Made by a program: the position numbers and the translations under genes. 64,000 nucleotides of DNA. Origin: a virus. Every line of letters starts with the position of its first letter. Position 1 is the first letter of the stretch. Below, in pieces: positions 17,711-43,000 of the stretch. Location of the stretch: IMG/VR virus record IMGVR_UViG_3300029266_001112, positions 1 through 64,000 of that record, one strand, 5' to 3'. The notes beneath the pieces are model-generated. The model made no database searches, was not told the origin of the DNA, and saw only the letters and a list, made by a program, of their open reading frames with translations.

Positions 17711-17920
17711 ATGCTATTTTCTAAAATCCAAGGTGAACAAAATTATGTCAAAGACCTAGAATCTGGTGCCATAGTTAATAATGATATTACGGAAATTCAA
17801 AAGTCCAAGATGAGAAAACAAAAAATGCGAGAAGAAAAAGAAGAATTTCAAGTATTAAAATCAGAAGTAGCAGATATGAAAAGTTTGCTCGTAGAAATTT
17901 CCAGAAAGTTAGGTGACTAA
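17711..17920 (+). CDS. Small charged coiled-coil protein
   Basis: A 69-residue protein starting at the ATG preceded by TTAGGTGAT (a GTG nine bases upstream is less likely). It contains DLESGAIVNND and then a highly charged helix rich in K, R and E (QKSKMRKQKMREEKEEFQVLK region) that should form a coiled coil. Small proteins of this kind occur next to structural genes in marine T4-like phages, but I know no function. It overlaps the next gene by one base (TAATG) and so is probably co-translated with the fibre gene. Confidence 0.6.
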   Translation: MLFSKIQGEQNYVKDLESGAIVNNDITEIQKSKMRKQKMREEKEEFQVLKSEVADMKSLLVEISRKLGD

Positions 17921-19131
17921 TGGCAAGATTAGAAAATGTAGATTTAAGTAATTCAATAAATGCTTGGAGACAGAAAACAAATCTCACTGCAACATATATC
18001 GGTGATTTGGACAATTTAAATACTTCTGATAGTGGGACTATTGTAGGAGCAATCAATTCAATCCAAAGTAAATTTGCTGTTAATGGTGAAGTACAAGGAT
18101 TGGCAAAAACTGCTTTGGCGTTATCCACTGGTGGTTCTGGAGCGCATTCGTCTTTATCATACGCAGATTCAGCAGGGGTTGGTGGTGGTCTCTTTACTTT
18201 CACATGCAATACCCTTACTCATACAGATATTCCTAATTTGGACGGTGGCAAGATCACAACTGGAACTATTGATCCTGGTAGAATACCAGCAATAGATGCA
18301 CTGAATATAACAACTGGTACGTTAGCGACTGCTAGGTTACCTTATTTTTCTGCGAATCAAACGACAGCAGGGCAATTTGACAGTGACCGCATACCATCTT
18401 TATCAACAAGTAAAATAACTAAAGGCGTTTTTCTTATTGGAAGAATACCAGATATTCCCTCTAGTAAAGTAATAGCAGATGGAAGTACTGTCCCATTAAC
18501 TGCAATGGACCCATCACTCGTAAGAAACAATGTTTCTACAACATACTCAGGTACGAGAGTCTATAACGGCACCAGCACTTTTTATGATACTGTTACGGTT
18601 GGAACTAGTGCCAGTCCCGTAGTCACTACTTTTAATGGAAATATAACTCACACTGGTAATATTATTCCTGCTGGTGTAAGTAATTCATATACAATTGGTA
18701 CAGCAACAGAAAAGTATCTGTCGGTTCATGCTACAACATTTTCTGGAAATGCCACATCTGCTAATTTTGCTGACCTCGCGGAAAAATATACTACAGATGA
18801 GGATTATCCAGTAGGCACTGTTATGATGGTAAACTACGGACCTGCTAGAGATGGTGAAACCACCAAATGCTCACCCTCTGGTATTCCAGTTGGAGTTATT
18901 TCAGCGGAACCAGCATTTCTTATGAATGCAGAAGCAGAAGGTCAAGCACTTGCCCTTAAAGGTAGGGTTCCTGTTAGAGTGTGTGGACAAGTTAGAAAAG
19001 GTGAAGCAGTTTATACTTGGAAAGATGGTTGTGCCAGTACTGAGTTCAATGGTGCCGAAATAGTTGGAATTGCTCTTGAAAATAGTGATATTGAAGATGA
19101 AAAAATGATTGAGTGTGTTCTTAAAGTTTAA
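17920..19131 (+). CDS. Fibre or virion decoration protein, first copy of the paired N-terminal module
   Basis: 403 residues. The N-terminal 45 residues (NSINAWRQKTNLTATYIGDLDNL) are paralogous to those of the fibre gene at 29571, suggesting both bind the same site on the particle. The middle is low-complexity with ITTGTIDPGRIP and TGTLATARLP repeats typical of phage fibre shafts. The C-terminal 120 residues begin NFADLAEKYTTDEDYPVGTVMMV and run to GRVPVRVCGQVRKGEAVY, a compact domain that ends many marine phage fibre proteins and resembles the self-cleaving C-terminal chaperone/peptidase G2 type. The next genes form the accessory island. Confidence 0.72.
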   Translation: MARLENVDLSNSINAWRQKTNLTATYIGDLDNLNTSDSGTIVGAINSIQSKFAVNGEVQGLAKTALALSTGGSGAHSSLSYADSAGVGGGLFTFTCNTLTHTDIPNLDGGKITTGTIDPGRIPAIDALNITTGTLATARLPYFSANQTTAGQFDSDRIPSLSTSKITKGVFLIGRIPDIPSSKVIADGSTVPLTAMDPSLVRNNVSTTYSGTRVYNGTSTFYDTVTVGTSASPVVTTFNGNITHTGNIIPAGVSNSYTIGTATEKYLSVHATTFSGNATSANFADLAEKYTTDEDYPVGTVMMVNYGPARDGETTKCSPSGIPVGVISAEPAFLMNAEAEGQALALKGRVPVRVCGQVRKGEAVYTWKDGCASTEFNGAEIVGIALENSDIEDEKMIECVLKV

Positions 19132-20723: not shown

Positions 20724-21578
20724 ATGGCAATATCAGACCCTATTACAGAAAATCCTGTAATTACAAAATATAAACAGTTTGTAACTGATAAGATTAATAG
20801 TGCTATCGTATTTGGTGATGATAACTTACCTGACCAATCAACTGCAAGTTTTTTTTCTGGGACCACAACTGGAATAACAACCACCCCAGATTTGACTGAT
20901 GCTCCAATAACTGCTGCAAATATTTTTGCTGTGCTTTTGAAGGATGTTAATCAATACACCAGAGTTAGAAAGTTTACGGCAGCACGAACTGTACTAGATG
21001 CTTTTGGTAATCCACTGACAGCAGCAGTACCACTCAATAATGAACCCATATTAGCAACCAATGTTGCAGCATCCACCAATGCACAACAAGAAAATCTATT
21101 TGCGTGTGAATGGGCGACTGCTTTGAAAACCATTGTCGCAGCAGGTAACACCACTTTAGACCTTTCCACAACTACTGCATTTTTTACTAAATGGGGTACT
21201 TATGGTGTCGGTGGACAACCAGACACTCTTTCAGAAGCAACATTATCTGGAGTTTCTGCTGATGCCGCATGTGTTGCAGCAACTCAAAAGTATGGTATAG
21301 CATTGCGAGGTTCTGCTCAAATCGGAGTTCCTTTTACTGCGAATGGTGTTGGAATCCTAACTGCCAAACATAGTTTTACTATTGATTCTGCTGATGTTGA
21401 TCATTCGATGATTATCTCAGGAGATTTGATTAACGATGTAGATTTAGAATCGTTATTTAATAATCTTTATAACGCATGGAAAACTGTTGCCTTAGATGCT
21501 ACTGCAACTGGATATACTGAATCTGTATGTCACTCAAATTGCCATTCTAATTGTCATAATTCAAGGAATAGGAGATAG
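20724..21578 (+). CDS. 284-residue protein with Cys/His-repeat C-terminal tail; candidate modification substrate
   Basis: The body (1-265) is not recognised; it is rich in Thr, Ala and Ser, has only two cysteines (in LFACEW and DAACVA), and looks like a virion or exported protein rather than an enzyme. No signal peptide is visible. The last 16 residues are CHSNCHSNCHNSRNRR (269-284): three tetrad repeats CH[SN][NS] ending in an arginine-rich tip. Repeats are coded by different synonymous codons (TGT CAC TCA AAT, TGC CAT TCT AAT), so similarity is kept at protein level. It sits between a radical SAM/SPASM gene and further modification enzymes, with a good ribosome binding site (GGAGAT). By analogy with RiPP precursors, the tail would be the core. 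This is inference. Confidence 0.7.
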   Translation: MAISDPITENPVITKYKQFVTDKINSAIVFGDDNLPDQSTASFFSGTTTGITTTPDLTDAPITAANIFAVLLKDVNQYTRVRKFTAARTVLDAFGNPLTAAVPLNNEPILATNVAASTNAQQENLFACEWATALKTIVAAGNTTLDLSTTTAFFTKWGTYGVGGQPDTLSEATLSGVSADAACVAATQKYGIALRGSAQIGVPFTANGVGILTAKHSFTIDSADVDHSMIISGDLINDVDLESLFNNLYNAWKTVALDATATGYTESVCHSNCHSNCHNSRNRR

Positions 21579-22239: not shown

Positions 22240-23280
22240 TTGGATTTAGTAGATTTCATTTTAAGAGATAAAAGAGATAAGCAGCAAGAATACACAATTC
22301 ATTTGTTTGAGTTTTGTAATCTATCTTGCCCGTTTTGCTGGCAAGACCACGACAACATTGTGGGTATTGATACTGTATTGGACAAGTTGGAATCAATAGA
22401 AAAGTTCTTTCAAAAAGAGATGAGAAAACATGTAGTTTTAAACATCATGGGTGGTGAAATTTTTGCTGATGAAATTTTTGATGAAAAACTAAAAAATGAT
22501 TATATTTCTCTTGCACAAGGCATAACAGACTTAGGGAAAAAATATAAGTTTGAAAGCATAGGGATTAATTGGGTCACTAACCTTGTGATTAGTAAAAGAG
22601 ACTACGTGCGCGACCTGTTGAAGGCGTGTAGGGATATGGGATGCAACTCAAAACTGGTAACTTCATATGATCCTAGAGGTAGATTCAATAAACCAAACTT
22701 GGAAATTTTCAAGGAAAATGTGTATAATTTCTGGGATGATCTCGAAGGAATTGGTGTTCTTTTAACCAAGTCTAATATTAAATATTGGTTGACTGATCCT
22801 AAAGATTTTATGCACGAATTATATCATAAGGGCGTAAAGGTTTATGCTGATTACTACATGCCTGATTGTCAAGCAGAAAGAAGTATGCCAACAGACAAAG
22901 AGCATTATGATATTTTCACACATTTTATAGATAACTATCCTAAGATTGATCCAATTCGTTCTTGGATAGAAAATGAGCGAAATGTTGTTTCGTGTAGATC
23001 ATCTAAACTAGTTCTTGAGGATGGTACGATGTGTTTATGCGGAAATCTTGTTCAAGAACCAAGAGATAAAGCAATGTATAAAACTGATATTCAGAAGGCG
23101 AACAATAAACCTATTGAAAAAGCATTTATTGAAAAGTATAATTGTTCCACTTGTGAATATTTTCATAGATGTACTCTTGGATGTTTCATGGCACATGATT
23201 ACAAATATGCGGAGGAAGTTTTTGATGAATGTGTTTATAAAATGACACATAGATATATTGAAAATAAAGGACTTCGATGA
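22240..23280 (+). CDS. Radical SAM/SPASM-like protein 2
   Basis: 346 residues from a TTG start at 22240, one base after the previous stop and 8 bases downstream of AGGAG. CxxxCxxC is Cys26, Cys30, Cys33 (CNLSCPFC), and GGE at 71-73 is the SAM-contacting motif. The C-terminus has CRSSK, then CLCGN and CSTCEYFHRCTLGC, with cysteines at 252, 265, 267, 302, 305, 311, 315 and 331, a SPASM-like auxiliary cluster domain. Probably another peptide- or protein-modifying enzyme. No in-frame ATG precedes the motif at a usable place. Confidence 0.87.
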   Translation: MDLVDFILRDKRDKQQEYTIHLFEFCNLSCPFCWQDHDNIVGIDTVLDKLESIEKFFQKEMRKHVVLNIMGGEIFADEIFDEKLKNDYISLAQGITDLGKKYKFESIGINWVTNLVISKRDYVRDLLKACRDMGCNSKLVTSYDPRGRFNKPNLEIFKENVYNFWDDLEGIGVLLTKSNIKYWLTDPKDFMHELYHKGVKVYADYYMPDCQAERSMPTDKEHYDIFTHFIDNYPKIDPIRSWIENERNVVSCRSSKLVLEDGTMCLCGNLVQEPRDKAMYKTDIQKANNKPIEKAFIEKYNCSTCEYFHRCTLGCFMAHDYKYAEEVFDECVYKMTHRYIENKGLR

Positions 23281-23281
23281 A

Positions 23282-23932
23282 ATGTTTTATTATGCCAACT
23301 GTGATAATTCTCCAATAAGTCAAACACTTTTAAATAGATTTACATCAAGAACTAAACTTCTAACCAATCCGATTAAAGATATTGACATTGAATATAATGT
23401 ATGTTATACTGTATTCGATTATTTGGTTGATAAGGAATTACCACCTTGCATTCATTTTTTAGATAATTTTTTGAGTAGTGAGGTGTACGTGTTTAGTACT
23501 TCTTTGTCAAGTAATTTATTATCTAAAGTAGATAGTAAATCTATGGTAGAAGATTATATTACTCAATTCACAGGATCACCTAAAACTGCAATTAATAATG
23601 ATTATGAACTAGGGTGGGTTGGGATAGAAAAATCTAAAGATTGTACGATAATGTCTAATATCCAAATCAATGGGATATATAGAAAAAGTCTGACCAGAAG
23701 ACAAGAGGTTGACTTTTATAGAACTATGGTAAATTTTTGTAGAAATGAAATAAAGATTAGACCTCTTTATGCTCCTACTGCCAAGACATTAAAATCACAA
23801 ATGAACAAAATGTCCAATCATCCAGATAGTGCCATAATGGAATCTCCTTATACTTCCAAAATTTTGAAAGGGTTTAAAAAGACTAAATTACAAATAGATG
23901 GCAGTGAATTGGAGTTTTATAAAAGTGATTAA
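23282..23932 (+). CDS. Unrecognised island protein B (216 residues)
   Basis: ATG at 23282 one base after the previous stop; AAAGGA about 10 bases upstream serves as ribosome binding site (a TTG at 23258 is a weaker alternative). The protein contains MFYYANCDNSPISQ, an ELGWVGIEKSKDCTIMSN segment and a basic C-terminus (KILKGFKKTKLQ). No motif identifies a family. It lies between a radical SAM/SPASM gene and the B12-type radical SAM gene and overlaps the latter by 8 bases. It may be a partner of these enzymes; this is inferred from position only. Confidence 0.62.
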   Translation: MFYYANCDNSPISQTLLNRFTSRTKLLTNPIKDIDIEYNVCYTVFDYLVDKELPPCIHFLDNFLSSEVYVFSTSLSSNLLSKVDSKSMVEDYITQFTGSPKTAINNDYELGWVGIEKSKDCTIMSNIQINGIYRKSLTRRQEVDFYRTMVNFCRNEIKIRPLYAPTAKTLKSQMNKMSNHPDSAIMESPYTSKILKGFKKTKLQIDGSELEFYKSD

Positions 23933-25556
23933 AATTGGATATATTAATCCTGCTGGAATTCCATCAAGGACAGAATTTAATTATCATTGGATGCTTTTTA
24001 AATGTTTCTATGAAGATTTTGGAAAATATCCAAACGACTTTGAGTGGGTTGAACCTATATTCAAATGGAATGAAGTGAGCATTCAAGACTGTCTTGATAA
24101 TTTAAAAGATTGTTCTATTGTTTTTTTCACTAACTATGTGTGGAATTATAAGATCAATGAAAAAATACGAGAAGGACTTGATCCAAAGACTATAGTTGTT
24201 CTAGGTGGACCACAACAAGACCCAGATATAATAAAAGACTATGATTACGTGGCAGACCCCCTTGCTCCTGGTGAGGTTTTTGTTCAGTATTTCCTTGATA
24301 TGTTCATGGAAAATAATATAGAAACTTCTAGAATTCCTTTTTATCTGGGAAGTTCTGTAAAAGCACCTTTACCTTTTGGTCATACGAATGTGTATAGGAG
24401 ATGTGAAAATTATTTCACTAAGCAGTATGAACACTTTATTAAAAATATAGACTTATATGAACGAATAACCTTAATATATGAAAGCACTAGAGGTTGTCCA
24501 TTTAAATGCTCTTACTGCGAATGGGGTGGTGGTACAGGCACAAAAGTTTTGAAAAAACCGATGGATGTGATCGAAGATGAGATGCTTTTTATTGGACAGT
24601 TCAAAGGTGTTCATATAGACTTGTGTGATGCCAATACTGGGATGTTCAAAGATCGTGATAGAGAAATGATGATGCATATGGTAAAAAATGGTGTGCAAAT
24701 AGGTGAAAATTTATCTGTACTAAAGACCTTAAAACTAGAACAGAAAAAGGAAATGCTTGACTTTATGATTGAGCATGATATTACTAGACAAGTTATAAGT
24801 ATCAGTCTGCAATCCATTTCAGAAGAAGCAAGAAGAATAGCAAATAGAAGAGACCTCACTGAAGAAGAAACTTACGAATTAGTAGACCATCTAACCAATA
24901 AGTGGAATAACTTTAAAGATAAAGAACTATGGTTAGATTTAGAATTAATCTTAGGTATGCCTGGTTCAACACTTGAAGACTTCTATGAAGAGTTTAGAGT
25001 ATACTATAGAATTGGATTGAACGTATGGGATGATAGTAGATATCCTTATATGGTTCTACCTGCAACTGAAGCAGCAAGCGTGGAATATAAAGAGAAGTAT
25101 AAAATAAAAACTTCTAAAGTATTAACTCAATTTGATGGTAATTATAGTGGAAAATGGGATGATGTTGAAGTAAATCAAATATATGGAAACGTGACATATG
25201 AGTATGATACCATAGTTGAATGTTTTTCATACACATTTGAAGAATACTTAGAGATGTTTATGATGAATCTGTTCACTCCACACATAGGTCTAAGTTTTAT
25301 AAATGAATACACTACCTATGAAAATGTGTCTGAGGTCTCAAAAGAATTATGGAATATACTCAACGATATACCTATATTTTTTGTCTATAAAGAATTGATA
25401 AGAAATATATTCTCTGATAATGTTCCACATAGTATGGATAAATTTGATGTAGGTAGTTTTTCTGGAAAGGGCATTATTGACGAAATGAAAGATTTATTAG
25501 ATACAAATGAAAAATTAATAAGGAGAAGACTAGATGAATTCTGTGGAAATTTATGA
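23925..25556 (+). CDS. B12-binding-type radical SAM protein
   Basis: 543 residues from a GTG start overlapping the previous gene (GGAG 10 bases upstream; an ATG at 23898 is possible but would add nine residues before the conserved KIGYINP start). Residues 1-130 have the layout of a cobalamin-binding domain (KIGYINP, then VFFTNYVWN, VVLGGPQQDPD, DYVADPLAPGE). The radical SAM motif is Cys191, Cys195, Cys198 in STRGCPFKCSYCEWGGGTG, and QVISISLQS with ELILGMPGST further match this class. Known relatives methylate unactivated carbons, rearrange carbon skeletons or make modified peptides. Cobalamin binding here is by domain layout, without the classical DxHxxG being visible, so base-off binding may differ. 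Confidence 0.85.
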   Translation: MIKIGYINPAGIPSRTEFNYHWMLFKCFYEDFGKYPNDFEWVEPIFKWNEVSIQDCLDNLKDCSIVFFTNYVWNYKINEKIREGLDPKTIVVLGGPQQDPDIIKDYDYVADPLAPGEVFVQYFLDMFMENNIETSRIPFYLGSSVKAPLPFGHTNVYRRCENYFTKQYEHFIKNIDLYERITLIYESTRGCPFKCSYCEWGGGTGTKVLKKPMDVIEDEMLFIGQFKGVHIDLCDANTGMFKDRDREMMMHMVKNGVQIGENLSVLKTLKLEQKKEMLDFMIEHDITRQVISISLQSISEEARRIANRRDLTEEETYELVDHLTNKWNNFKDKELWLDLELILGMPGSTLEDFYEEFRVYYRIGLNVWDDSRYPYMVLPATEAASVEYKEKYKIKTSKVLTQFDGNYSGKWDDVEVNQIYGNVTYEYDTIVECFSYTFEEYLEMFMMNLFTPHIGLSFINEYTTYENVSEVSKELWNILNDIPIFFVYKELIRNIFSDNVPHSMDKFDVGSFSGKGIIDEMKDLLDTNEKLIRRRLDEFCGNL

Positions 25557-26064
25557 CGATTTTTTAAATAAAGATGAATTAAACTATATAAAGAAAACTT
25601 TCTCTATGGATAATCCAGAGATTGATGCTCTACCAAGGTTTGATATGCAGAAAAACACGGCAACAAATATTAAAAATCTCATGAAGGGGTTTCCAAATTT
25701 AAACAAGGCAAAGACTATTGCACTATGTAAAGATTCGAGTATAAGCAAGGTTGCGATAGCACACTTAATTAATATTGTCAAGTATGAAGAAGATAATAGT
25801 GAGAATATGATTTGGGAACCGCATCACGATGGCACGGAGTCTAAAATCATCACTTTGTTCTTTATAGATATAGATAAGGATGGTTGGCAAGGTGGCGAGT
25901 TGGATATTTATAGTTCACTTGATATTTTTGAATATCCAAAAAACAAAACTAGAATAGAACCAAAACCAGGTAGATTGGTTGTTTTTAATAGTTCTATGAT
26001 CCATGGCATTAAACCATATTTCGGTAAAACGCCAAGGATGACTGTAAGTGTGGGGTGGGAATAA
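25534..26064 (+). CDS. 2-oxoglutarate/Fe(II) oxygenase 1 (prolyl 4-hydroxylase-like)
   Basis: 176 residues, starting at an ATG 23 bases inside the preceding gene after AAGGAG. The fold is a double-stranded beta-helix: EPHHDGTES with His97-His98-Asp99 (HxD), GGELDIYS, PGRLVVFNSSMIHGI with distal His157, and Arg168 in PRMTVSVGW positioned for the 2-oxoglutarate C5 carboxylate. This is the P4H/2OG-FeII_Oxy type, which hydroxylates amino acid side chains or small molecules. In this operon, hydroxylation of a peptide or protein side chain is the natural suggestion. Confidence 0.88.
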   Translation: MNSVEIYDDFLNKDELNYIKKTFSMDNPEIDALPRFDMQKNTATNIKNLMKGFPNLNKAKTIALCKDSSISKVAIAHLINIVKYEEDNSENMIWEPHHDGTESKIITLFFIDIDKDGWQGGELDIYSSLDIFEYPKNKTRIEPKPGRLVVFNSSMIHGIKPYFGKTPRMTVSVGWE

Positions 26065-26065
26065 A

Positions 26066-26620
26066 ATGAATATAGACAAAAATTCTGGAAGTTTCATCGA
26101 AAATAATCCTGATATGTTTATTCATATAAAGGACACTCTTCCAAAATTAAAATGGTTGCGCCTCAAGCGGAGTGATTCCAAAAAATCAGATAGATGGCAG
26201 AGTGTTGCTTGGAATTATTATTTTCACTCTATGAAAAAGAAAATGTTAGAGACCGCAGACTTACTTTGGGAAACTTATTTACCTTGGGAAACCGAAAAGA
26301 ATTTAGATTATTACACTATGTGGAATGGTACAGATACTGGTTCGTGCGAATGGCATCATGATACTGAGGGTGGTAATCTACAGTTTAATTTGTATTTTAC
26401 AGATTTAGACCCAAATGGTGGTGGTGAGATTATGTTTAGGAACATGGAACAAAATAAGAAAATTACTACCTTTCATTTACCTAAAAAGTATGATATAATT
26501 ATGAGTAGTGTTGGTAATGACCTAAAATTTCAACATAGAGTTGAGCATACCAAAAATCCAAAACAAGAAAGAATAACCATGCTGTTCAGATTTAAGGTGA
26601 AGGAATCTCCATGGAAATGA
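26066..26620 (+). CDS. 2-oxoglutarate/Fe(II) oxygenase 2
   Basis: 184 residues from the ATG right after the preceding stop. HxD is His97-His98-Asp99 in CEWHHDTEGG, followed by FNLYFTDLDPNGGGEIMFRN, FHLPKKYDIIMSS and distal His157 in KFQHRVE; Arg169 in ERITMLFRF is the probable 2-oxoglutarate binder. It is closely paralogous to the next protein and more distant from oxygenase 1. An upstream GTG at 26048 is possible but unneeded. Expected activity: Fe(II)- and 2-oxoglutarate-dependent hydroxylation of an unknown substrate. Confidence 0.87.
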   Translation: MNIDKNSGSFIENNPDMFIHIKDTLPKLKWLRLKRSDSKKSDRWQSVAWNYYFHSMKKKMLETADLLWETYLPWETEKNLDYYTMWNGTDTGSCEWHHDTEGGNLQFNLYFTDLDPNGGGEIMFRNMEQNKKITTFHLPKKYDIIMSSVGNDLKFQHRVEHTKNPKQERITMLFRFKVKESPWK

Positions 26621-27219
26621 GAGATAAAGGGTATCTCACTGAAAATAGACAAGATATGTTTATTCACATTGAAAATACCATTCCAAAACTAAAATGGTTA
26701 AATATGAATACGGATAGTAAAGATACTATTCCAAAAATGCCATGGGCAAAATCTAAAGACTGTAGGAATTATAGCATTCCTTGGAATTATCATTTGAAGG
26801 GTATGCGAAAAAAAATAAAAAAAACTGCTGACCTGCTCTACGATACATATTTGTCTAAGTATGAAGACCCCATGGATTACTTCGGAAATCAAAATGATAG
26901 ACGGTTAATATATTCATATATTTGGAATGGCACTTCTTCTGGTTCGGATGTCTGGCACAACGATTTAATTGAAGGTGCGAATGTTTTCTTTTTACTATAT
27001 TTTACAGATATGGAATTGGGGTCTGGTGGCGAAATTATGTTTAGGAACATGGAAGAAAATAAACGTGTAACTTGTTTCCATTTACCTAAAAAATACGATC
27101 TTATATTAGGTAGTCAAGACTTAAAATTTCAGCACAGAGTTGAAGATTTTCGAAAACCTTCTATGCAAAGAATTACTCTGAACTTCGGATTTAATATAAA
27201 GAACTCGCCGTGGACCTAA
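26611..27219 (+). CDS. 2-oxoglutarate/Fe(II) oxygenase 3, paralogue of oxygenase 2
   Basis: 202 residues, ATG overlapping the preceding gene by 10 bases with AAGGAA upstream. His116-Asn117-Asp118 (HxD) in VWHNDLIEG, GGEIMFRNMEENKRV, FHLPKKYDLILGS, distal His175 in KFQHRVED and Arg187 in MQRITLNFGF complete the catalytic set. Blocks such as GGEIMFRNME and FHLPKKYD are shared almost unchanged with oxygenase 2, so the two arose by tandem duplication. They differ in the N-terminal third, where a KSKDCRNYSIPWNYHLKGM segment replaces the shorter one, suggesting different substrates. Confidence 0.88.
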   Translation: MEMRDKGYLTENRQDMFIHIENTIPKLKWLNMNTDSKDTIPKMPWAKSKDCRNYSIPWNYHLKGMRKKIKKTADLLYDTYLSKYEDPMDYFGNQNDRRLIYSYIWNGTSSGSDVWHNDLIEGANVFFLLYFTDMELGSGGEIMFRNMEENKRVTCFHLPKKYDLILGSQDLKFQHRVEDFRKPSMQRITLNFGFNIKNSPWT

Positions 27220-28244
27220 TTATCAAACCAACAGAATTGTGCAACTTTAAGTGTTCTTTTTGCTCTTCATCTAAGATCACTCAAGATGACGATACTGCTG
27301 TGCTTGATTTGAATAAAATATTTAAATTTCTAAAAAGATTCCCAGACACAAATACTATCATAGTCAATGGTGGTGATCCTTTGATGATGAAACCTAATTA
27401 TTATTGGAGGTTGATAGAGTTTTTAGATAAACATAATATGCCAGCATCAATATCTCTGACAACCAATTTATATCCCTTTCTAATGAAACCAAAAAAATGG
27501 GTAGAACTCTTTAACCATCATAGAATTGGTGTTGGCACATCATTTCAATATGGTGGTGGTAGATTAAAGGGAGATTATAGCGAGTTCACTGAAGAAGATT
27601 TTTGGAAATGCTCAAATGCGATGTTAGAATATGTTGGATATAGACCCTCTTTCATTGCAGTTATTGTTGAAGAAAATGAAGACACTGTTATTAAGACGGT
27701 GGAACTAGCAAAGAAAATGGATGTGGTATGTAAAGTAAACTACGCAATGGCATCAGGATCACAATCTGCACCCTATAGACTTTCAAAGATATATGAAAGA
27801 TATATACAAATATGGAAAGCAGGTCTAAGTGATTGGGAACATAACACACAACAAATGCTGAATAGGTTAAGAAAAAAACCAACCATATGCCCTCAGTCGA
27901 GAAATTGCGATAGTGGTATTAGAAACATCCAACCAGAAGGTGATTACTATTCATGCGGTTCCTTTGGTGATGACTTTGATAAACCGATAGATTTTGAGTA
28001 TGAAATGAAAGGTGGGTTTTCGACACCACTCTCAGATGATTTCTATCTAAAGAGTCTTAAAAACTCATGTTACACATGCCCAATGTTTGAAATTTGTAAT
28101 GGATGTAAGAAAACTATAAAAGATTTAAAACAGCACAATATGGTAGAAGATCATTGCAAACATATGAAATCTATGGCAAGTGATATAATTTCATTAAATA
28201 GGATGGATACTAAAGTAACAGAATATGTGAGAGAGTATTCATGA
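27210..28244 (+). CDS. Radical SAM protein 3 (cysteine-rich C-terminus)
   Basis: 344 residues from a GTG start overlapping the preceding gene by 10 bases. The cluster motif is Cys11, Cys15, Cys18 (CNFKCSFC), and GGDP replaces the usual GGEP. The C-terminus has NCDSGIRNIQPEGDYYSCG, CYTCPMFEICNGC and a last HCKHM, which resembles a SPASM/Twitch auxiliary cluster region. Radical chemistry on an unidentified substrate. It is a relative of the next protein (same CNF[KR]C[SN]FC motif and spacing). Confidence 0.88.
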   Translation: MDLIIKPTELCNFKCSFCSSSKITQDDDTAVLDLNKIFKFLKRFPDTNTIIVNGGDPLMMKPNYYWRLIEFLDKHNMPASISLTTNLYPFLMKPKKWVELFNHHRIGVGTSFQYGGGRLKGDYSEFTEEDFWKCSNAMLEYVGYRPSFIAVIVEENEDTVIKTVELAKKMDVVCKVNYAMASGSQSAPYRLSKIYERYIQIWKAGLSDWEHNTQQMLNRLRKKPTICPQSRNCDSGIRNIQPEGDYYSCGSFGDDFDKPIDFEYEMKGGFSTPLSDDFYLKSLKNSCYTCPMFEICNGCKKTIKDLKQHNMVEDHCKHMKSMASDIISLNRMDTKVTEYVREYS

Positions 28245-29173
28245 TAGTCTCAATCAACCCAACATATTTTTGTAATTTTAGGTGTAATTTTTGTTATCTT
28301 ACACCAGAACAGTTGGGCGATCAAAAAAAGATTTCATTTGATAAACTAGATGAATTACTATCTCAAGTACCTAATGTTGAACATGTTGATTTGTATGGTG
28401 GAGAAATGGGGGCAGTGAAAAAGTCATATTTTTATGGTATCAAGGAAGTTATTCGAAAATACTATTCTGGTACAATTAATATCAATACCAACTATTCTAT
28501 GATGCACGATGGTTTCTTTGATGACGATGTTTATCTGTCTGTATCATATGACTTTAGTGCTAGAGAAAAATCTAACTTAGTATTTCAAAATATGATGATG
28601 AGTCCAGCACCGATTGCGGTTCTTATTCTAGCATCACCTGAAGTTTTGAAAATGAATGTTAAAGAAATGATTCAAATGTTGAATATGTGTGGTGCCGTGA
28701 AATCGGTAGAAATAAAACCATATTCTATCAACCAAGCAAACTCGTTTACTGTGACGCATTTGGATTTTGAAAAGTTTGTTATTCGTTGGATGGAACTGGA
28801 AGATCAAATGAACTTTCAGTTTGTAAATGGAGATAAGATAGAGGAGTCTTTTAATGGACTATACAATGCATTTTCGGATGATCATGTTTACATTACTCCT
28901 AACGGCAAGTTTGGAGTATTGGAGTTTGATATACACGATAGAGAATACTTTCACGAATTGGATTCTTTCCAATCTTATATAGAATGGACAGAAAAAGAAA
29001 AAAAAGATATGATAAGTCCTATTTGTACTTCATGCAAATATTTTGGTAATTGTTTAACAGAACATTATCGATATGTCAAGGACTTAGATAATGGGTGTAA
29101 CGGATATAAAGGACTATTGGATTGGTATGAAAAAATGGAGAACAGCATCACAAGTTTATCACCTACTTACTAG
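28241..29173 (+). CDS. Radical SAM protein 4 (shorter, cysteine-rich C-terminus)
   Basis: 310 residues, ATGA overlap with the preceding gene. Cys11, Cys15, Cys18 in CNFRCNFC, and LYGGEMG for SAM binding. The C-terminus has PICTSCKYFGNC and GCNGYKG, fewer cysteines than the other copies, suggesting one auxiliary cluster (Twitch-like). The N-terminal half aligns in layout with radical SAM protein 3. It is the last recognisable enzyme of the island. Confidence 0.86.
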   Translation: MIVSINPTYFCNFRCNFCYLTPEQLGDQKKISFDKLDELLSQVPNVEHVDLYGGEMGAVKKSYFYGIKEVIRKYYSGTININTNYSMMHDGFFDDDVYLSVSYDFSAREKSNLVFQNMMMSPAPIAVLILASPEVLKMNVKEMIQMLNMCGAVKSVEIKPYSINQANSFTVTHLDFEKFVIRWMELEDQMNFQFVNGDKIEESFNGLYNAFSDDHVYITPNGKFGVLEFDIHDREYFHELDSFQSYIEWTEKEKKDMISPICTSCKYFGNCLTEHYRYVKDLDNGCNGYKGLLDWYEKMENSITSLSPTY

Positions 29174-34058: not shown

Positions 34059-37000
34059 ATGCCAGCAACAATAAGAATAAAACGATCCTCCACCATCAAT
34101 GTACCAGAGAACCTAAAAGTCGGAGAACTAGCATATTCTTATGCTGGAACCTCTGATGCTCTTTTTATCGGCATTGGTCCTGAAGTAGATGCTCAAGGAA
34201 CAGCAACAAGAATTGCTAAAATTGGTGGTGAAGCAATAACTTCACTATTCCCAGACTCTGATGGGATTGCCCAAGGGGGTAGACTATTACAATTAGATAA
34301 TGATATTGGATTAAATTATTTAAAACTCAAAAGTCTTGCTGGAGACTCTGGTAGTTTTAACAATCTAAGTATTGATAGTGCTTATGTTCGCTTCTTCAAT
34401 GCTGATAGTGCTGTCATAAAAGGACTTATTACAGATTCAGCACATATTATATTTTTGGAAGCAGATAGTGCCTATATTAACAATCTTCGTGTCGATTCCG
34501 CTTATGTTGCTTATGCAAATATCGACAGCGCAGACATTAGATTTGCAACACTTACGGAGGTAGACAGTGCCTATATTCATGATGCTTCTATCGACAGTGC
34601 TTATATACAATTTGCCGACATTGACAGCGCCCATATTGATAACGTCAGTATTGATAGTGCTTATGTACGTTATCTTGATGTGGATAGCGCACACATTGAC
34701 GATGTTTCTATCGATTCTGCTTACATCCAATTTATGGATGTTGATAGTGGGCATATTGATAATGTAACAATAGATTCTGCCTATATTAAGTTTGCTGATA
34801 TCGACTCAGCACACATTGATGATGTAACAATAGATTCTGCTTACATCCAATTTATGGATGTTGACAGCGGTCACATTGACAATGTTTCTATCGATTCCGC
34901 TTACATTAAGTTTGCTGATATCGACTCAGCACACATTGATGATGTTTCTATCGATTCTGCTTATATACAATTTGCCGACATTGACAGCGGTCACATCGAC
35001 AACGTAACAATAGATTCTGCTTACATTAAGTTTGCGGATATCGACTCAGCACACATTGATAATTTAGATGTGGATAGTGCATACATTGATTATGCAAAAA
35101 TAGATAGTGCATATATTAGTCAACTGACTGTTGATAGTGCAACCATAACTAATGCAACAATTCCGACATCATATCAAAACCTGATTACTGGTCCAGCAGA
35201 AATAGTTATTGATCCTTCTGGCATTGGTGATAATACTGGTCGAGTACTTATCAAAGGCGATTTACAGGTTGATGGTGTTCAAACTATTATCAACTCAACT
35301 GTAGTTACGACAAACGATAAAAATATTCTTCTTGCCGATAGTGCTGTTGATAGTGCTGCTGCTGATGGCGCAGGCATTACAGTTTTCGGGAAAGAATTTA
35401 ATTCTTCTGTTCACGGTAGAGGAAGTATTTACTATCAAGCAAGCGCAGCAGGATTCCAAGGGCAAGTCAGTCCAGCGCCAGGATTATGGAAAACAACTCT
35501 ACCATTAGATATTTCTGGTGGATTAAACATTGCTGGAAAATTAACTGGTGTTACTAGTATTGACGCAGATAGTGCAAACTTAGTAAATCTTAGTGGCAAA
35601 TATGTTGCTTATGATTCTGGTAGAATTGGTCAATTTACTGCTGACAGTGGATCAGTTATAGAACTTACTGGTGTAAGATCAGTTTATAATCTTGGTTATT
35701 TTGATAAAACTTTTGTCGATAGTTACTACATGAATGGTGCTTTTGATGGTGGTATTATTAGTACCATAACAGCACAAGGCAGACTTAAAAATGATGCAGA
35801 TTTCGTAAGAAGTTCTGTAGCAAGTTGGACAAATGTAAACGGAACCCTAGATGGTATCCATCTTAATAAAGAAGTAATCAATGGTACACCTGCTGGTGCA
35901 GATTCTTCATACTATCATTTAAGTTTAACAAATGATGGTAAAATATTTGCGCGAGGTCTTAGAATTGGTGAGGATGTTGGTAGACCAACTGCACCTGTCG
36001 ATCCCGCACAACTCGTATATAATACTCAATTGGGTAGAGGTCTTACTCACCCACATGCATTCTATGGCATAGAACTAAATGATTCACAATTTATTTCCAC
36101 ACTACAAACAAATAAAATCAAATCAGATTTCAGTGCAGATAGTGCAAAAATTGGTGGTGCCAATAGTATTTTCGATAGTGTAGGTTATCCTGGAACTTCC
36201 ATTTTTTCGGTAGTAGGTGCTTTAGATAGTAACTTAGTTGAAATCATAAAAGATGGTTCTATTAATTTTCAAGGTGATCTTTATAACCAAGGGGTTAAGT
36301 ATGTTGGTGCTGGTATTTTCAGCAAGATTTTTGAACCAACAGATTTTGAAGATGTTCATTTTACTCCAGTAAGAAAAACAGCAGCACAAGGTGACGCATT
36401 CCAAGTCGGTGGAAGAATGGGTATTAACACATCTAGACCTGCTCACGCATTTGACTTTAGAACTAATGATGGTATATTTCAAGTATCTGGTTTATTCAAT
36501 TCTGGTGCGCCACATTACGCTTTACAATCCCCAGCAACAATTAATGCAATACCGTCAAGTTATCAAGTGTTTGGTGATACTGATAGTGACAAATCCAGAA
36601 TGCTCTGGGATCCTGCCAAAGCAAGATTTAGAGCAGGATATTTCAATAGAGGTGCTATACTATCTACTGAAATGGGTTTATATTCTACAGCATTTGGTAA
36701 AAATACCAAAGCAAAAGATTATGCTTTCGCTCAAGGTGATTCATCTGAGGCACTTTCGAGTTACAGTTTCGCATCTGGTTACAAATCTACGATTGACAAT
36801 AATTCTCAATATGGTATTGCAATGGGTGCTGAAAACACCCTTGCAAATGCACAAAGTGGTATTGCTATTGGTCAACTGAACCAAGTTCTTGCTACTAAAG
36901 GTATCGGTATTGGTAAAAGTAACACAGGTATCGCACAAAATGCAATCGCAATCGGTGATAATCAAATTGCTAGTGGTAATTTCAGTATTGCTATTGGGCA

Positions 37001-40000
37001 AGGAAATCAGGTAACTGGGACTAATTCTATAGCAATTGGTCCAAGCGGAAATGTTATTGGCGGTACTAACTCAGTTGGTATCGGTGTTAATCATAACATC
37101 AGCGGTTCTTACAACTTCGGTTTTGGTGATGGTACAATATTTAATAGTACCACAAATTTATCATTCGCTTTTGGTAAAAATGTAGAGGTCGGTGGTGACT
37201 ATTCGTTTGGTATCAATTTAGGTACTGGTGCGGGCGCAAGTGCGTTTATACCAATTCCAAACAATCACGACAACTTCATGTCAATCCAAAATGGTAACGT
37301 AACAATTGGTAGTGATTCTGATCTTACCAGAATGGCAACACCCGTATCAAGTGGAACTGGTAATCTTTATGTAACTGGTGACTTAATTTATAGCGGAACA
37401 AGTCTCAAACTGACTCCAGATGGAACATTAATACAATCTTCTCCTTGGGAAGATGATGGAACTCGAATTACATACACAAACGGTGGCAAACCTATTGGTA
37501 TGCACGTTTCACTTCCAAACACTCCAATTGAGGCAGCAGGCGACAGAGGTTTCATATTCAGAGGTCAATATAGTGGAGCATATAATACTGATATAAGTGA
37601 AGGCGCATCATTCTTTGACTCTGCTGGTGGGACTACCACAAGTTTCTCTAATTTTGCTGCTAATGTAAGTTTAATGGGTTACTATCCCAAGGGTGGTATA
37701 TTCAGAGTTGGTTTAATAAATGTTGCAGATCACCGCAACGACTCTATGGGTGCACATTCTATTGGGATGGGTTACCATAATAAAGTTAATGCTGATTATG
37801 GTGTAGCATTAGGAGGAAATACTACAAAAGTTATTGGTAGATATTCTATTGGTTTGGGTGGTAATCTGAACGAAGTAACTGGCGAATTTAGCACTGCTTT
37901 GAACGGTACTGGCACTAAAGTAAAAGGTAATTATAGTCTTGCTCTTGGTGGACAAGGTACTACAATTGTTGGCAATAATAGTGTATCTTTGTCTGGTGGT
38001 GGTACTGCAAACTATATCAAAGGTGCCAACACTTTCTTAATAGGTTTTGGAAACAAAGATTCTGCTGCCGACAATGGGACTGCCTCTGGAAGTCCATCAT
38101 CTGGGACACCATATAAAAACTTCTTTGTTGGATTTGACAATATTGTCGATTCAAATTCACATAACATCAGAGAGAATTTTGTTTTTGGTGAAGGCAATAA
38201 AATTGCTACTACAAACGGTAAAGGTAACTTTATCATTGGTAGGGATGTTGTTCTTACTGGAAGTCAATCTAATCAAATAATTCTCAGCAACCCTACAAAT
38301 GATTCTACTGGAGTTGATAATACTAAAGTTGCAATTGGTAAACATCACGCTGAATATGCACTGGATATTAGAGGAACTATTAGAGTTGGTGGTGACGGAG
38401 TTTATCGTGGCGACTCGTTTGATAGTCACGAATCATCAATTATTATCAACGATCAAGACATTAGAGATTATATTAAAGGTGTCGATCCAACAAACGCTGC
38501 TATCGTAATTGAGCAACCAAATATTGCATTGCCAACAGCAACTGTTGTAAACATTGAACAATCTAATCCAGCAGTTTTGGTAATACGCAATACGAATGGT
38601 ATTTTGACTGATGGTAAAACTGTCAAGTTTGATCTGCCAAGTTTAACTCAAATCGGTCAATTCTTAAATGACTCTATATTTGCTGTATCACCTGTTGTTG
38701 GTGGTCTTGGTGATAGTTTCTTATTATATGATGGTGCAACATATGCAGATGCAGCAACTCGTGTAGCAGTTAATACAATAAAAGGTACAACTCGTCAAAA
38801 GGGTGGTGGACTTGGTATTACTCTGGGTACTGCAAATCCATACGTATATGGTACAACTGGAACGCAATACGATTCAGCACAGTTTGATGCTGCTGGTGCA
38901 ACTCCAACGGCAGAAATAGAGTTCGGTCAATACCTAGCACTCAAAAATCTTCCTATAGTTAGTGGTGGTGGATCAGCGCCAGCACCTTCTCGTTTTAAAA
39001 CAACTGTTATCATGGATTCAGATTTAATTGTTGCAGGTACAGTAACACTTAATGATTCCGCATTTATTGGTAAAGATTTAGTTGTAGGTGGTAATCTTGA
39101 TCTTACCACTGGTTACATGAAAACTGGTGGATACTTAGACGTAAATACTTATGGTATATTTGGAGATTCTGTCACAATTGGCGGTAATCTATCTGGTGTC
39201 AAGGTATTCACTAGCACCGACAGTATGACTGTTGGTGGCAATTTAACTGTTGCAGGTTCAATTACTGGAGCAACAAATTACGTTGGTTCGGATAGCATGA
39301 CTATTGGTGGCGATCTTACGGTTGCTGGTGCAGTCTCTGGTGTGACAACCTATGTTGGTGCTGACAGTATGACTGTTGGTGGTGGTTTAGTTGTAACTAA
39401 AACTGTAGTTACTGGCACTCATATCACTGGTGGTGGCGATCTTACGGTTGCTGGTGCAGTTAGTGGTGTGACAACGCTTGTATCAAGTGACAGCGCCATT
39501 GTAGGTGGCAACTTAACGGTTGCTGGTGCAGTTAGTGGTGTGACAACGCTTGTATCAAGTGACAGCGCCATCATTGGTGGCAACTTAACTATCGGTGGTG
39601 GTTTGAGTGGAATAACTTCCTTGACTGCCTCTGGACCAATAACCTTTGCGGATAGTATTCGTATAGGTGGTTCGGTTAGATGGTTAGATAATTCGGATGA
39701 CGATAGTTTCTATATCGGTAATCTTAGTTTTGATAGTTACGTTCTACGTCCTGGAAGTCAAATTCTTGGGGCAGTTTTAGATTACTTCGATACTGACTAT
39801 GTTCAGCAGAGAGTTGACTCATTTAACAGTTGGCAGATTTATCCAGACGCTATTGTTTACAATCCAAGTGATAAACATAAAGTTGTTGCCATTGGGATAA
39901 CCAACAACCAAGCATGGACAGGTTGGAACCCATCTTTGAATGGTGGCGGCAATGCTGCATATTCACATCATTTATTGAAAACTGGTACTACCTTTTCTGA

Positions 40001-43000
40001 TGTAACTGACGATAGTGCAATTACACTTGCTTCTTATAACAGTAGACACACAAACTTTAGTAGTGGACTTGGCGATTCAGTAGGACTTGATATCCAAGGT
40101 AAAATCAATATCAGAACTGCGGATGTAAACGGTGATGATTATATTACTAATCCACCAATCACATTTAGTGGTAATGGAACTACGTCAACGGCATGGCCAA
40201 ACCCACCATGGTTGCGGCAAACTGGTTATATCGACCAACCATACGTCAGAGCGCAATTAGATGGTCAGTTCCTTCTTGACTTATTTCAACAAGACGCATC
40301 AACAGCAGCAAATTCTAAAGAGTTCTTTAGAGGTATGCTTGATTCCGCATATATCATTAGTATTTGGGATTCCGATTACTATTGGAAGCATGACAGTTTT
40401 AACGCAGTTTATATCGGTGCGCCAGGACAACTCTATGATGGAACTGCTGCTAATGGATTCTATTATGACGGTAATATAAAACTTGCTATCAACAAAAGAG
40501 GTGACTCATCAGAATATAATCTTGATCTTCGTGGAGATGCTAGATTTGAAAAGAACCTTGTAGTTGAAGATAGTATAACTATGATCGGTAACTTATCTGG
40601 TGTTGTCAACTTGGCAATGTCAGGCGCTATTGGAACTGCCACTACATTCAAATCTACAGATAGTATGACAATCGGCGGCGATCTTACTATAGTAGGATCA
40701 ATTACTGGAGCAACAAATTACGTTGGTTCAGATAGCATGATTATTGGTGGCGATCTTACGGTTGCTGGTGCAGTAACTGGAGTCACTAGATTTGTCACAT
40801 CAGATAGTGCAATTATTGGTGGTAGTCTCAAAGTAGAAAGTGACCTAACTATTGGTGGTGGTTTGACCAGTTCATCATTCTTCAATATTGACTCTTTTGT
40901 TAATATTGGTGGTGCTGTTAAACTTGGTTCATTCAATGGGCGCGATTCTCACCTTGGATTGGGTGTTTATGATGCTAGTCAAATAAAAGGAAAAAATGGT
41001 CTATATGTTGGCGATAGCACTCATTTAAGAGGCGGTCTAAAAGTTCTTGGACATGATAATGTTCTTCAAGAAGCATATACCTTTACTATTGATAGTGCTT
41101 ATTTGCAGACTAAGCAAACAGTTACTATGAATAATACTCAAATCCAAAACGCATTTGGACCTAATGATGCAGACTCTCATGTCACACTAGCATTTACAGA
41201 TTCTCCTGACTTCGATTTCCTAAAAATTAAAAGAACCACTGTTGGTGGTGTAACAACACTATTGCTAAAAGGTGTTGACTATGATTCAATCGGAAACAGA
41301 ACTCTCTTTGATTCCTCACAATATGGATATGGTTCACCGTCACATAACTTGGTGACGAATGCAAACAAACTTAAAAATGTTTATATCAAAGAACCATCAC
41401 TATTAGCAACAGACACTTCTATCGTTGGTGAAGAAATTGTTGCCATAGCAGATTCCAACGGCAAAAAATCAATTATCATTGGTAGTCAGATTATTAGTCT
41501 TGCTGGACATGCTGTCCCGAAAGATTCTAATAAGTTCTCAGATGCTGGTGATTCAATTCAAGTTAATGCTGGTCTGGCACTTTATGGTGTTACTGATCCA
41601 ATCGTTAAACTAAGAGCAGCAGATGGAACATTAAAAGGTCAACTGCTAAAAGATCGTGATTTTACGATTGTAGATTCTTATCAAATAAGAGTATTCACGG
41701 ATATCGCAATTACTCCTGGTTTATTCCCAACTAATTATGGCACTAACGATTCATCATTTTTGATCCTTGGTGATAAAATTGATATTCAAGATAGAACTCC
41801 AAAACTCACAAGTAAATCTGACTTTGTTGGTCCAACAAATTTATATGGTCATGTTACACTTGGCAATTACGATATGGCAAATGCTGCCTATCCAGGATAT
41901 CCACATACTGGTTCTAAATTAACGACCCATGATAGTTTCATTATTAAAGGTGGTATGCACTTTGAAAGCAGTGGCGATCCAGTAATAAGAAACAAAATAC
42001 AATTTGATGGTGATGTTCATGTAGACTCTGGAAAGACTTGGTTCTTCGGACCTAAGAAAACTCTTACTCACTCAATTCCTGCTGATCTTAATTACAGATT
42101 TGAGTCTGATGGTGTAGGTACTGCAACCGTTCCAGCAAGGATTGAATCTGATGGTGGTCCGAATATAGCGAATAGTTTTGCTCAAGGAACACCAATTGGA
42201 ACTGAGGCAGCAAAACATCATATCAATACCACAGATGGGTATGGACATTTTAGTAGCATTGTTGCAAAAACCACATTTGATTCTCATCTTGCAATTACAA
42301 TGGACTCGCACATTGTTGCCAATGTAAGAATAAATACTGATCCTCTCACATTAAATGCTGTAAGTATGACTGCTAATGATCTTATCATTAGACCTGGAAA
42401 AACTATGTTTTATGGCACTCAGCGCCAAAGAGCATTTAAATTCTTAAAGCACGATAGTGATGGTGTCGGAGGATTGTTAAATAAATTCGAATCTGATGGT
42501 ACTTTCAATGGTACTTTGAGGATGAATGGTGCAACACCATATGCTGATAGCGCATTAAACCCGCGTAGACATTATCATCAAGGTGATTCTGACTTTAGAC
42601 TTACTTTAGATTCCCACATAGTTGAGATTCTACAAAGTCCACCTTTGCCAGAAATGAATTTTACTGTTCCAGTTAATTTTAGTAAAAACGCAATATATGG
42701 TGGTACTGCCACATTTAACGATTCTGCTGTATTTAACGGAAACTTTACTTTAAATACTGGTAACTTTACTCTTGATTCAACTTCGGTAATGACCGTTGGA
42801 CCACCAGTATATTATTATAAGTATGAGTCTGATGGCACTGGCGCTGGCACGAAAACCACTCATGGTTTGGATGTTAAAAATGTTTACCCCGATGGTCAAC
42901 TTTATACTCGTTTTCAACATTTCTTTGATCGAAGTGCAACACATTTCCAAACATTCAACAGTACAAAATCTGATGCTCAAAATGTAGTTTACAAATATGA

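Follow-up and report, generated by a model that had tools for sequence, protein, structure and literature searches.

The C-terminal repeat and its conservation

The stretch of DNA analysed here (the window) comprises positions 1 to 64,000 of the virus record IMGVR_UViG_3300029266_001112, the whole record being 70,971 bases long. An open reading frame (ORF) on its plus strand encodes a protein of 284 residues, which ends in YTESV followed by the blocks CHSN, CHSN, CHNS and RNRR, with the stop codon at 21576–21578. This C-terminal sequence, CHSNCHSNCHNSRNRR, occupies its codons exactly and is referred to below as the tag, while the protein that bears it is referred to as the carrier; the tag is considered here as the likely substrate of radical S-adenosylmethionine (radical-SAM) enzymes encoded by the adjoining genes. 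The initial annotation, made from the DNA letters, described the last 16 residues as three Cys-His repeats with an arginine-rich end on a protein with only two further cysteines, and translation of the ORF bears this out, the two cysteines outside the tail being C128 and C183. The repeat units are encoded by varying codons (TGT CAC TCA AAT, TGC CAT TCT AAT and TGT CAT AAT TCA). The spaced motif C-H-x-x-C-H-x-x-C-H (TGYCAYNNNNNNTGYCAYNNNNNNTGYCAY) has a single match in the window and none in 100 dinucleotide-preserving shuffles.

A whole-protein search yielded one direct homologue, with 45% identity, the end CHSSCHTSCHGSRGRR and the same gene order, and tblastn searches of the phage collection with the whole protein and with short tail queries returned nothing useful, owing to the strong divergence of the carrier bodies and the shortness of the tail. 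A DNA pattern for CHxxCHxxCHxxRxRR scanned over viral contigs matched at least 120 stretches, approximately one third of which are low-complexity frames (CHWRCHWR and the like) that were set aside and reused as control loci. Among the matches listed, the genuine ones are ORFs of approximately 120–370 residues terminating exactly at the tag, and they include dozens of unlike proteins that end at CHx[SN]CHx[SN]CHx[SNA]R[GSN]RR. Searches of 20 genomes or records gave one to three pattern matches in each, and none with the reversed-pattern controls.

Columns that the pattern does not fix are also conserved, namely Ser/Asn at −13 and −9, Ser at −5, Gly at −3 and Val/Ile at −17, and they hold in loci chosen without the tail. 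Among 154 distinct tagged proteins, every repeat draws on both Cys codons and both His codons, and each Arg position on as many as six Arg codons; conservation therefore acts at the protein level, as had been proposed from the window alone. The repeat number is three as a rule, with examples of two (L322), four (L045) and five (L107, which lacks the Arg end), and some phages carry a tandem pair of tagged genes. The four-repeat tag, CHSNCHSNCHSNCHTNRSRR, belongs to a carrier on the minus strand that ends near position 8107 in a 231-kb virus, where seven radical-SAM genes adjoin it. By single linkage at E 1e-4, the carrier bodies form 11 groups, two of which are large. An alignment of 56 carriers of the main kind shows no invariant columns other than C269, H270, C273, H274, C277, H278, R281, R283 and R284, and the carrier therefore contains no other conserved substrate site. 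A core or recognition site at the carrier C-terminus is thus well supported, the tail being the sole invariant part of the protein.

Linkage to radical-SAM genes

The association was assessed in both directions. In the forward test, profiles of the window enzymes were run on 102 tagged loci and on 58 control loci, which were chance matches from the same pattern scans. Homologues of the window radical-SAM proteins were found in 86 of the tagged loci versus none of the controls, and a second radical-SAM type (CxxxCxGCF, phrog_31457-like) accounts for nearly all of the remaining tagged loci. A radical-SAM gene is thus present in 98/102 tagged loci, with one to seven per locus and a median gap of 16 bp, and in the other four the tags lie at contig ends. 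In this test, which the initial annotation had proposed, proteins with this tail sit beside radical-SAM genes at every assessable locus.

The reverse test used loci retrieved by enzyme sequence alone, the tail being left unused, with three sets of queries: close and distant relatives of rSAM1, the radical-SAM protein encoded just upstream of the carrier, and the second type. A tagged protein was present in 74 of 80, 77 of 79 and 41 of 45 loci, respectively. All 12 misses are contig-edge truncations: at the eight rSAM1 misses, no more than 302 bases separate the enzyme from the contig end, which is shorter than a carrier gene, and the four second-type misses begin within 2.2 kb of a contig edge, while their tags usually lie approximately 3 kb upstream. 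Some contigs occur in both rSAM1 sets, and 156 distinct tagged proteins were obtained over all sets. The tail is therefore kept wherever the enzymes are, truncated loci aside, and in both directions a putative precursor with a conserved core is linked to candidate dedicated enzymes, as in ribosomally synthesized and post-translationally modified peptide (RiPP) systems.

Six cultured phages carry the tag: Agrobacterium phage Atu_ph07, Sinorhizobium phage Phosso, Burkholderia phages FLC6, FLC8 and SURPRISE13, which are nucleus-forming Chimalliviridae (PMC11898562), and Pseudomonas phage pPa_SNUABM_DT01. The tagged proteins of the cultured phages (gp170 in Atu_ph07, gp72 in each of FLC6, FLC8 and SURPRISE13, and PA10_00065 in pPa_SNUABM_DT01) are annotated as hypothetical and adjoin radical-SAM genes or unlabelled equivalents; the C-terminal tryptic peptide of the Atu_ph07 protein ends in VDFCHSSCHASCHNSR. 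The tag is also found on contigs of Bdellovibrio/Bacteriovorax-type metagenome-assembled genomes, and a bacterial genome scan revealed a sister form, CHxACHGACHGSRGWR, on contigs of Pseudomonas, Thalassospira, Oceanospirillaceae and Methylococcales. Rare in its family (1 of 299 sampled genomes), the Pseudomonas form has a carrier with a signal-peptide-like N-terminus lying among five radical-SAM genes, with prepilin-like genes adjoining in some cases. Bacterial sister loci (L137, L139, L146 and L147 from Pseudomonas and Oceanospirillaceae, together with L132 and L126) contain up to five radical-SAM genes and a protein of 440 residues of unknown function. These bacterial sister systems are seemingly undescribed.

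The enzyme cassette and the carrier

In the window, wedge, hub and lysozyme genes make up a T4-like baseplate operon, which is followed by a tail-fibre-like gene and then by the enzyme cassette, the genes of which run from the cupin/JmjC-type gene to rSAM4 in the order given in Table 1, with further tail-fibre-like genes downstream. The tail region also includes one ORF of 5167 residues at 34059–49562.

Table 1. Coordinates of the tagged gene, the tag and the surrounding cassette in the window (aa, amino acids; 2OG, 2-oxoglutarate)
Feature	Coordinates	Strand	Remarks
Tail-fibre-like protein	17920..19131	+	phrog_19602 tail fiber protein, 9.2e-10; upstream cassette edge; homologue in 46 tagged loci
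Cupin/JmjC-type protein, 166 aa	19195..19695	+	Pfam Cupin_2 and JmjC_2 over curated cut-offs; HSD...H candidate iron triad
rSAM1, radical-SAM/SPASM, 339 aa	19695..20714	+	CQLNCKHC core and SPASM Cys
Carrier (tagged) protein, 284 aa	20724..21578	+	Helical/strand body at ~9-269, then a probably exposed C-terminal tail
C-terminal tag, proposed modification core	21528..21575	+	
phrog_20767 protein, 217 aa	21586..22239	+	Usually the next gene after the tagged gene; homologues in 74/102 tagged loci
rSAM2, radical-SAM with SPASM-like Cys	22240..23280	+	CNLSCPFC; CSTCEYFHRCTLGC; homologues in 48 tagged loci
224-aa protein	23258..23932	+	No PHROG, Pfam or NCBIfam match
B12-type radical-SAM protein, 552 aa	23898..25556	+	Pfam Radical_SAM over cut-off; homologues in 7 tagged loci
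2OG-Fe(II) oxygenase-like	25534..26064	+	HHD...H; Pfam 2OG-FeII_Oxy_3 33.9 bits, cut-off 27
2OG-Fe(II) oxygenase-like, weak match	26048..26620	+	HHD...H
2OG-Fe(II) oxygenase-like, paralogue of the preceding gene	26611..27219	+	HND...H; homologues in 14 tagged loci
rSAM3, radical-SAM/SPASM-like	27210..28244	+	CNFKCSFC; DynA family 2.9e-15, far under cut-off; homologues in 41 tagged loci
rSAM4, radical-SAM	28241..29173	+	CNFRCNFC; homologues in 31 tagged loci

In rSAM1, a CxxxCxxC core is combined with the auxiliary-cluster cysteines of a radical-SAM/SPASM maturase (CRDC-x15-C, CLQCPVAKFCGGDC and C325, placed by motifs and alignment), and the protein scores 34.8 bits against the SPASM domain TIGR04085 (cut-off 27). 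The B12-type protein most resembles KedN5 C-methyltransferases (NF033712, 2.4e-26), under the cut-off. The cupin/JmjC-type protein, with homologues in 41–46 of the 102 tagged loci, is a candidate His, Arg or Asn hydroxylase, and the 2OG proteins are likewise candidate hydroxylases.

The phrog_20767 ORF has an alternative upstream ATG at 21496 in the ORF list, and a model of the protein (predicted local distance difference test (pLDDT) 74) found no match in the PDB by fold search. The 224-residue protein has no homologue among the remaining tagged loci. Two further families are conserved cassette members elsewhere, namely phrog_36207, encoded by a gene for approximately 370 residues that follows phrog_20767 (L063:7151-8221; approximately 42 tagged loci), and a family of 366 residues without a match (L050:6209-7309; 13 loci). 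Neither matches the radical-SAM models, and both are candidates for a recognition or scaffold role. Some radical-SAM proteins (L163, L322, L103, L139 and L147) have C-termini of the form N/S-[LI]-I-x-V/G, such as TNLILKV, SNIIPVKQL and SSLIAVAG; an enzyme C-terminus of the type [NS]-[LI]-I-x-[VKG] was considered as a docking tail and rejected as too rare (9/261).

The AlphaFold model of the carrier has a mean pLDDT of 84.3, with values of 54–56 in the tail blocks, and the tail, modelled at low confidence, is probably exposed. Fold searches found no solved relative in the PDB, and a viral fold library returned phage proteins, including an Atu_ph07 protein of 296 residues, which is the length of gp170. 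In the Atu_ph07 report, virion proteins found by mass spectrometry cluster at coding sequences 170–215 (PMC6102473). Because the gene lies in a baseplate/tail-fibre setting and gp170 falls inside this cluster as delimited there, the carrier probably belongs to the virion, in the tail-fibre/baseplate region. The cluster thereby lends indirect support to the word 'structural', which the initial annotation applied to the protein.

Candidate modification of the tail

SPASM radical-SAM enzymes are known to cross-link or otherwise change peptide side chains. Because the tagged genes are linked to genes of this kind and conservation is confined to the tail, the tag is likely to be the substrate of the adjoining radical-SAM/SPASM enzymes, often acting together with cupin or 2OG enzymes, with the carrier as a probable virion component; we place the probability of this reading at approximately 0.8. 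The last 16 residues would constitute a portable C-terminal core of two to five Cys-His-x-(Ser/Asn/Ala) units with a near-universal, invariant Arg-x-Arg-Arg end. The radical-SAM/SPASM enzymes, aided in many phages by cupin and 2OG oxygenases, would recognise the C-terminus and alter the repeat units before assembly. The tag would probably be retained on the carrier, because it ends at the carrier stop and neither a linked protease nor a conserved site for cleavage was noticed among the neighbouring genes, although no systematic search for these was made. The likeliest chemistry would be a radical cross-link within each unit, either a bond from His to the β-carbon two residues on, as in the triceptide register (H-x-S/N/A), or else a thioether to Cys. 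In cupin-containing phages, hydroxylation may come after cross-linking, and the mature tail would then form a rigid, cationic and possibly metal-binding tip.

Several points weigh against this proposal. The modification of the tail, its chemistry, its place in the virion and its role are all inferred; for the virion location, the evidence from Atu_ph07 consists of the cluster boundaries given in one paper and not of its protein list. The enzymes fall far under the cut-off of every named maturase family. No RiPP recognition element has been identified, and the phrog_20767 protein, the sole unknown modelled besides the carrier, resembles no known fold. Finally, the B12-type radical-SAM protein and the 2OG proteins are patchy across loci and may act elsewhere.

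Family membership was judged by the curated NCBIfam and Pfam cut-offs, and no Pfam or relevant NCBIfam model matches the tagged proteins. The CXXX-repeat target family likewise has Cys at every fourth target residue, but rSAM1 scores 39 bits against TIGR04115 (cut-off 350), over the N-terminal core only, and the precursor matches no model. The His-Xaa-Ser (Hxs) system includes HxsA, a longer protein with C-terminal His-x-Ser repeats that is matured by the radical-SAM proteins HxsB and HxsC, as the NCBIfam names also indicate. Tagged loci similarly have C-terminal H-x-S repeats beside radical-SAM genes, whereas in the tagged proteins His follows Cys, the period is four and the end is R-G-R-R; moreover, the enzymes reach at most 45 bits for HxsB (cut-off 370) and 33 bits for HxsC (cut-off 267.9), with no HxsA match. 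The named triceptide precursors are short bacterial peptides. Triceptides, produced by three-residue cyclophane-forming enzymes (3-CyFEs) such as XncB, OscB, MscB, HaaB, YhhB and ScaB, share with the tag an i to i+2 motif handled by SPASM radical-SAM enzymes, with an aromatic or His donor and an Asn, Ser, Ala or Arg acceptor (PMC11002830), but the carriers described here have 120–370 residues, are mostly encoded by phages and contain an invariant Cys in each unit. The enzymes remain under all cut-offs of the 3-CyFE families (XyeB, GrrM/OscB, FxsB, YhhB and AmcB), the best score being 74 bits versus 425 for AmcB, at a Pseudomonas locus. Pairs of radical-SAM and Fe/2-oxoglutarate enzymes acting on repeat precursors are known from TvgB/TvgC (PMC11002830), which handle the repeat core of TvgA to give poly-cyclopropylglycine (PMC9062424, PMC11002830); the Tvg repeats, however, are of the Thr-Val-Gly type and belong to a bacterial cluster with transporters and no phage carrier. 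Cassette proteins are held as phage families in PHROG 35144 (some carriers, including residues 229–284 of the window protein), 20767, 36207, 1802 and 31457, all labelled 'unknown function' except 1802 ('radical SAM domain-containing protein'), with no system described. In the literature searched, which covered neither subscription papers nor outside preprints, the tag sequence and radical-SAM modification of virion or tail proteins were not found. As judged from sequence comparison, the tag system would work like a radical-SAM RiPP and is outside the named families by score, since the Hxs, CXXX-repeat and 3-CyFE cut-offs are not reached.

A more specific chemistry within the favoured reading is a three-residue cyclophane in which each His is joined to the β-carbon of the Ser, Asn or Ala two residues on, with Cys serving as a metal ligand or thioether partner. 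At the motif level, the CHx[S/N/A] unit fits the Omega1-x-X3 register, X3 being Ser, Asn or Ala in all three units and Ala dominating in the Pseudomonas form. Cross-links published in the i/i+2 register include His-Cβ(Ala) by HaaB and ScaB and Phe-Cβ(Ser) by MscB, as well as Asn acceptors, and known 3-CyFEs can use His as a donor and Ala, Ser, Asn or Arg as acceptors, in various pairs (PMC11002830). On the other hand, the enzymes are not 3-CyFE family members by score, and Cys is equally invariant, so that thioethers of the sactionine or ranthipeptide type have about the same plausibility; the cyclophane is a guess and less likely than not.

An unlikely alternative is that the tail does no more than bind metal (Zn, Fe, Cu or Fe-S) at a fibre or spike tip, the radical-SAM enzymes serving other substrates of the operon such as the tail fibre. 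Metal-binding tips are known on phage spikes and fibres, and three Cys-His pairs at period four would be good ligands, but both radical-SAM types show linkage to the tag, radical-SAM neighbours are retained where the tag sits on unrelated carriers, including secreted-looking bacterial proteins, and the invariant R-x-R-R at the extreme C-terminus would be left unexplained. Metal binding by the tail, modified or unmodified, may nevertheless occur. A haem-binding function, considered due to the resemblance of CxxxCH to c-type motifs, was rejected: the enzymes linked to the tag belong to the radical-SAM kind, genes for cytochrome maturation were not seen, and the phage carriers that were inspected have no obvious signal peptide.

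Slightly less probable still is a recognition or sorting signal, at which the enzymes would dock to alter the carrier body or which would target the protein for assembly. The exact and invariant C-terminal position and the basic residues are typical of such tags; however, the carrier body offers no invariant modifiable residue in the 56 sequences, and variation of the repeats from two to five with the unit kept is core-like rather than docking-like. A chance or low-complexity repeat without function is highly improbable. Short Cys-His repeats do emerge in GC-rich frames and produced the artefacts among the pattern matches, but the tag lies exactly at the C-terminus, its codons vary synonymously, columns not selected by the pattern are conserved and enzyme genes are linked to it, and the enzyme-only reverse test rules this reading out.

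Phage radical-SAM genes tend to be catalogued as auxiliary genes whose purpose is unknown, and one large group of them now has a near-universal partner and a 16-residue target. The finding is broader than could be seen from the window, encompassing many phage groups and some bacteria. It appears somewhat more probable than its opposite that this is a widespread and hitherto undescribed system, in which nucleus-forming jumbo phages, T4-like phages and some bacteria (on secreted-looking proteins) use their own radical-SAM enzymes to alter a retained Cys-His core, in phages at the tip of a virion protein, and so provide a cross-linked or otherwise non-standard tip for host contact. If the tail is modified, one to seven enzymes per locus would form a ready set acting on one compact repeat, radical-SAM chemistry would take place on a probable structural protein of the virion, and RiPP-type modification would extend from small released peptides to the retained tips of full-size phage proteins.
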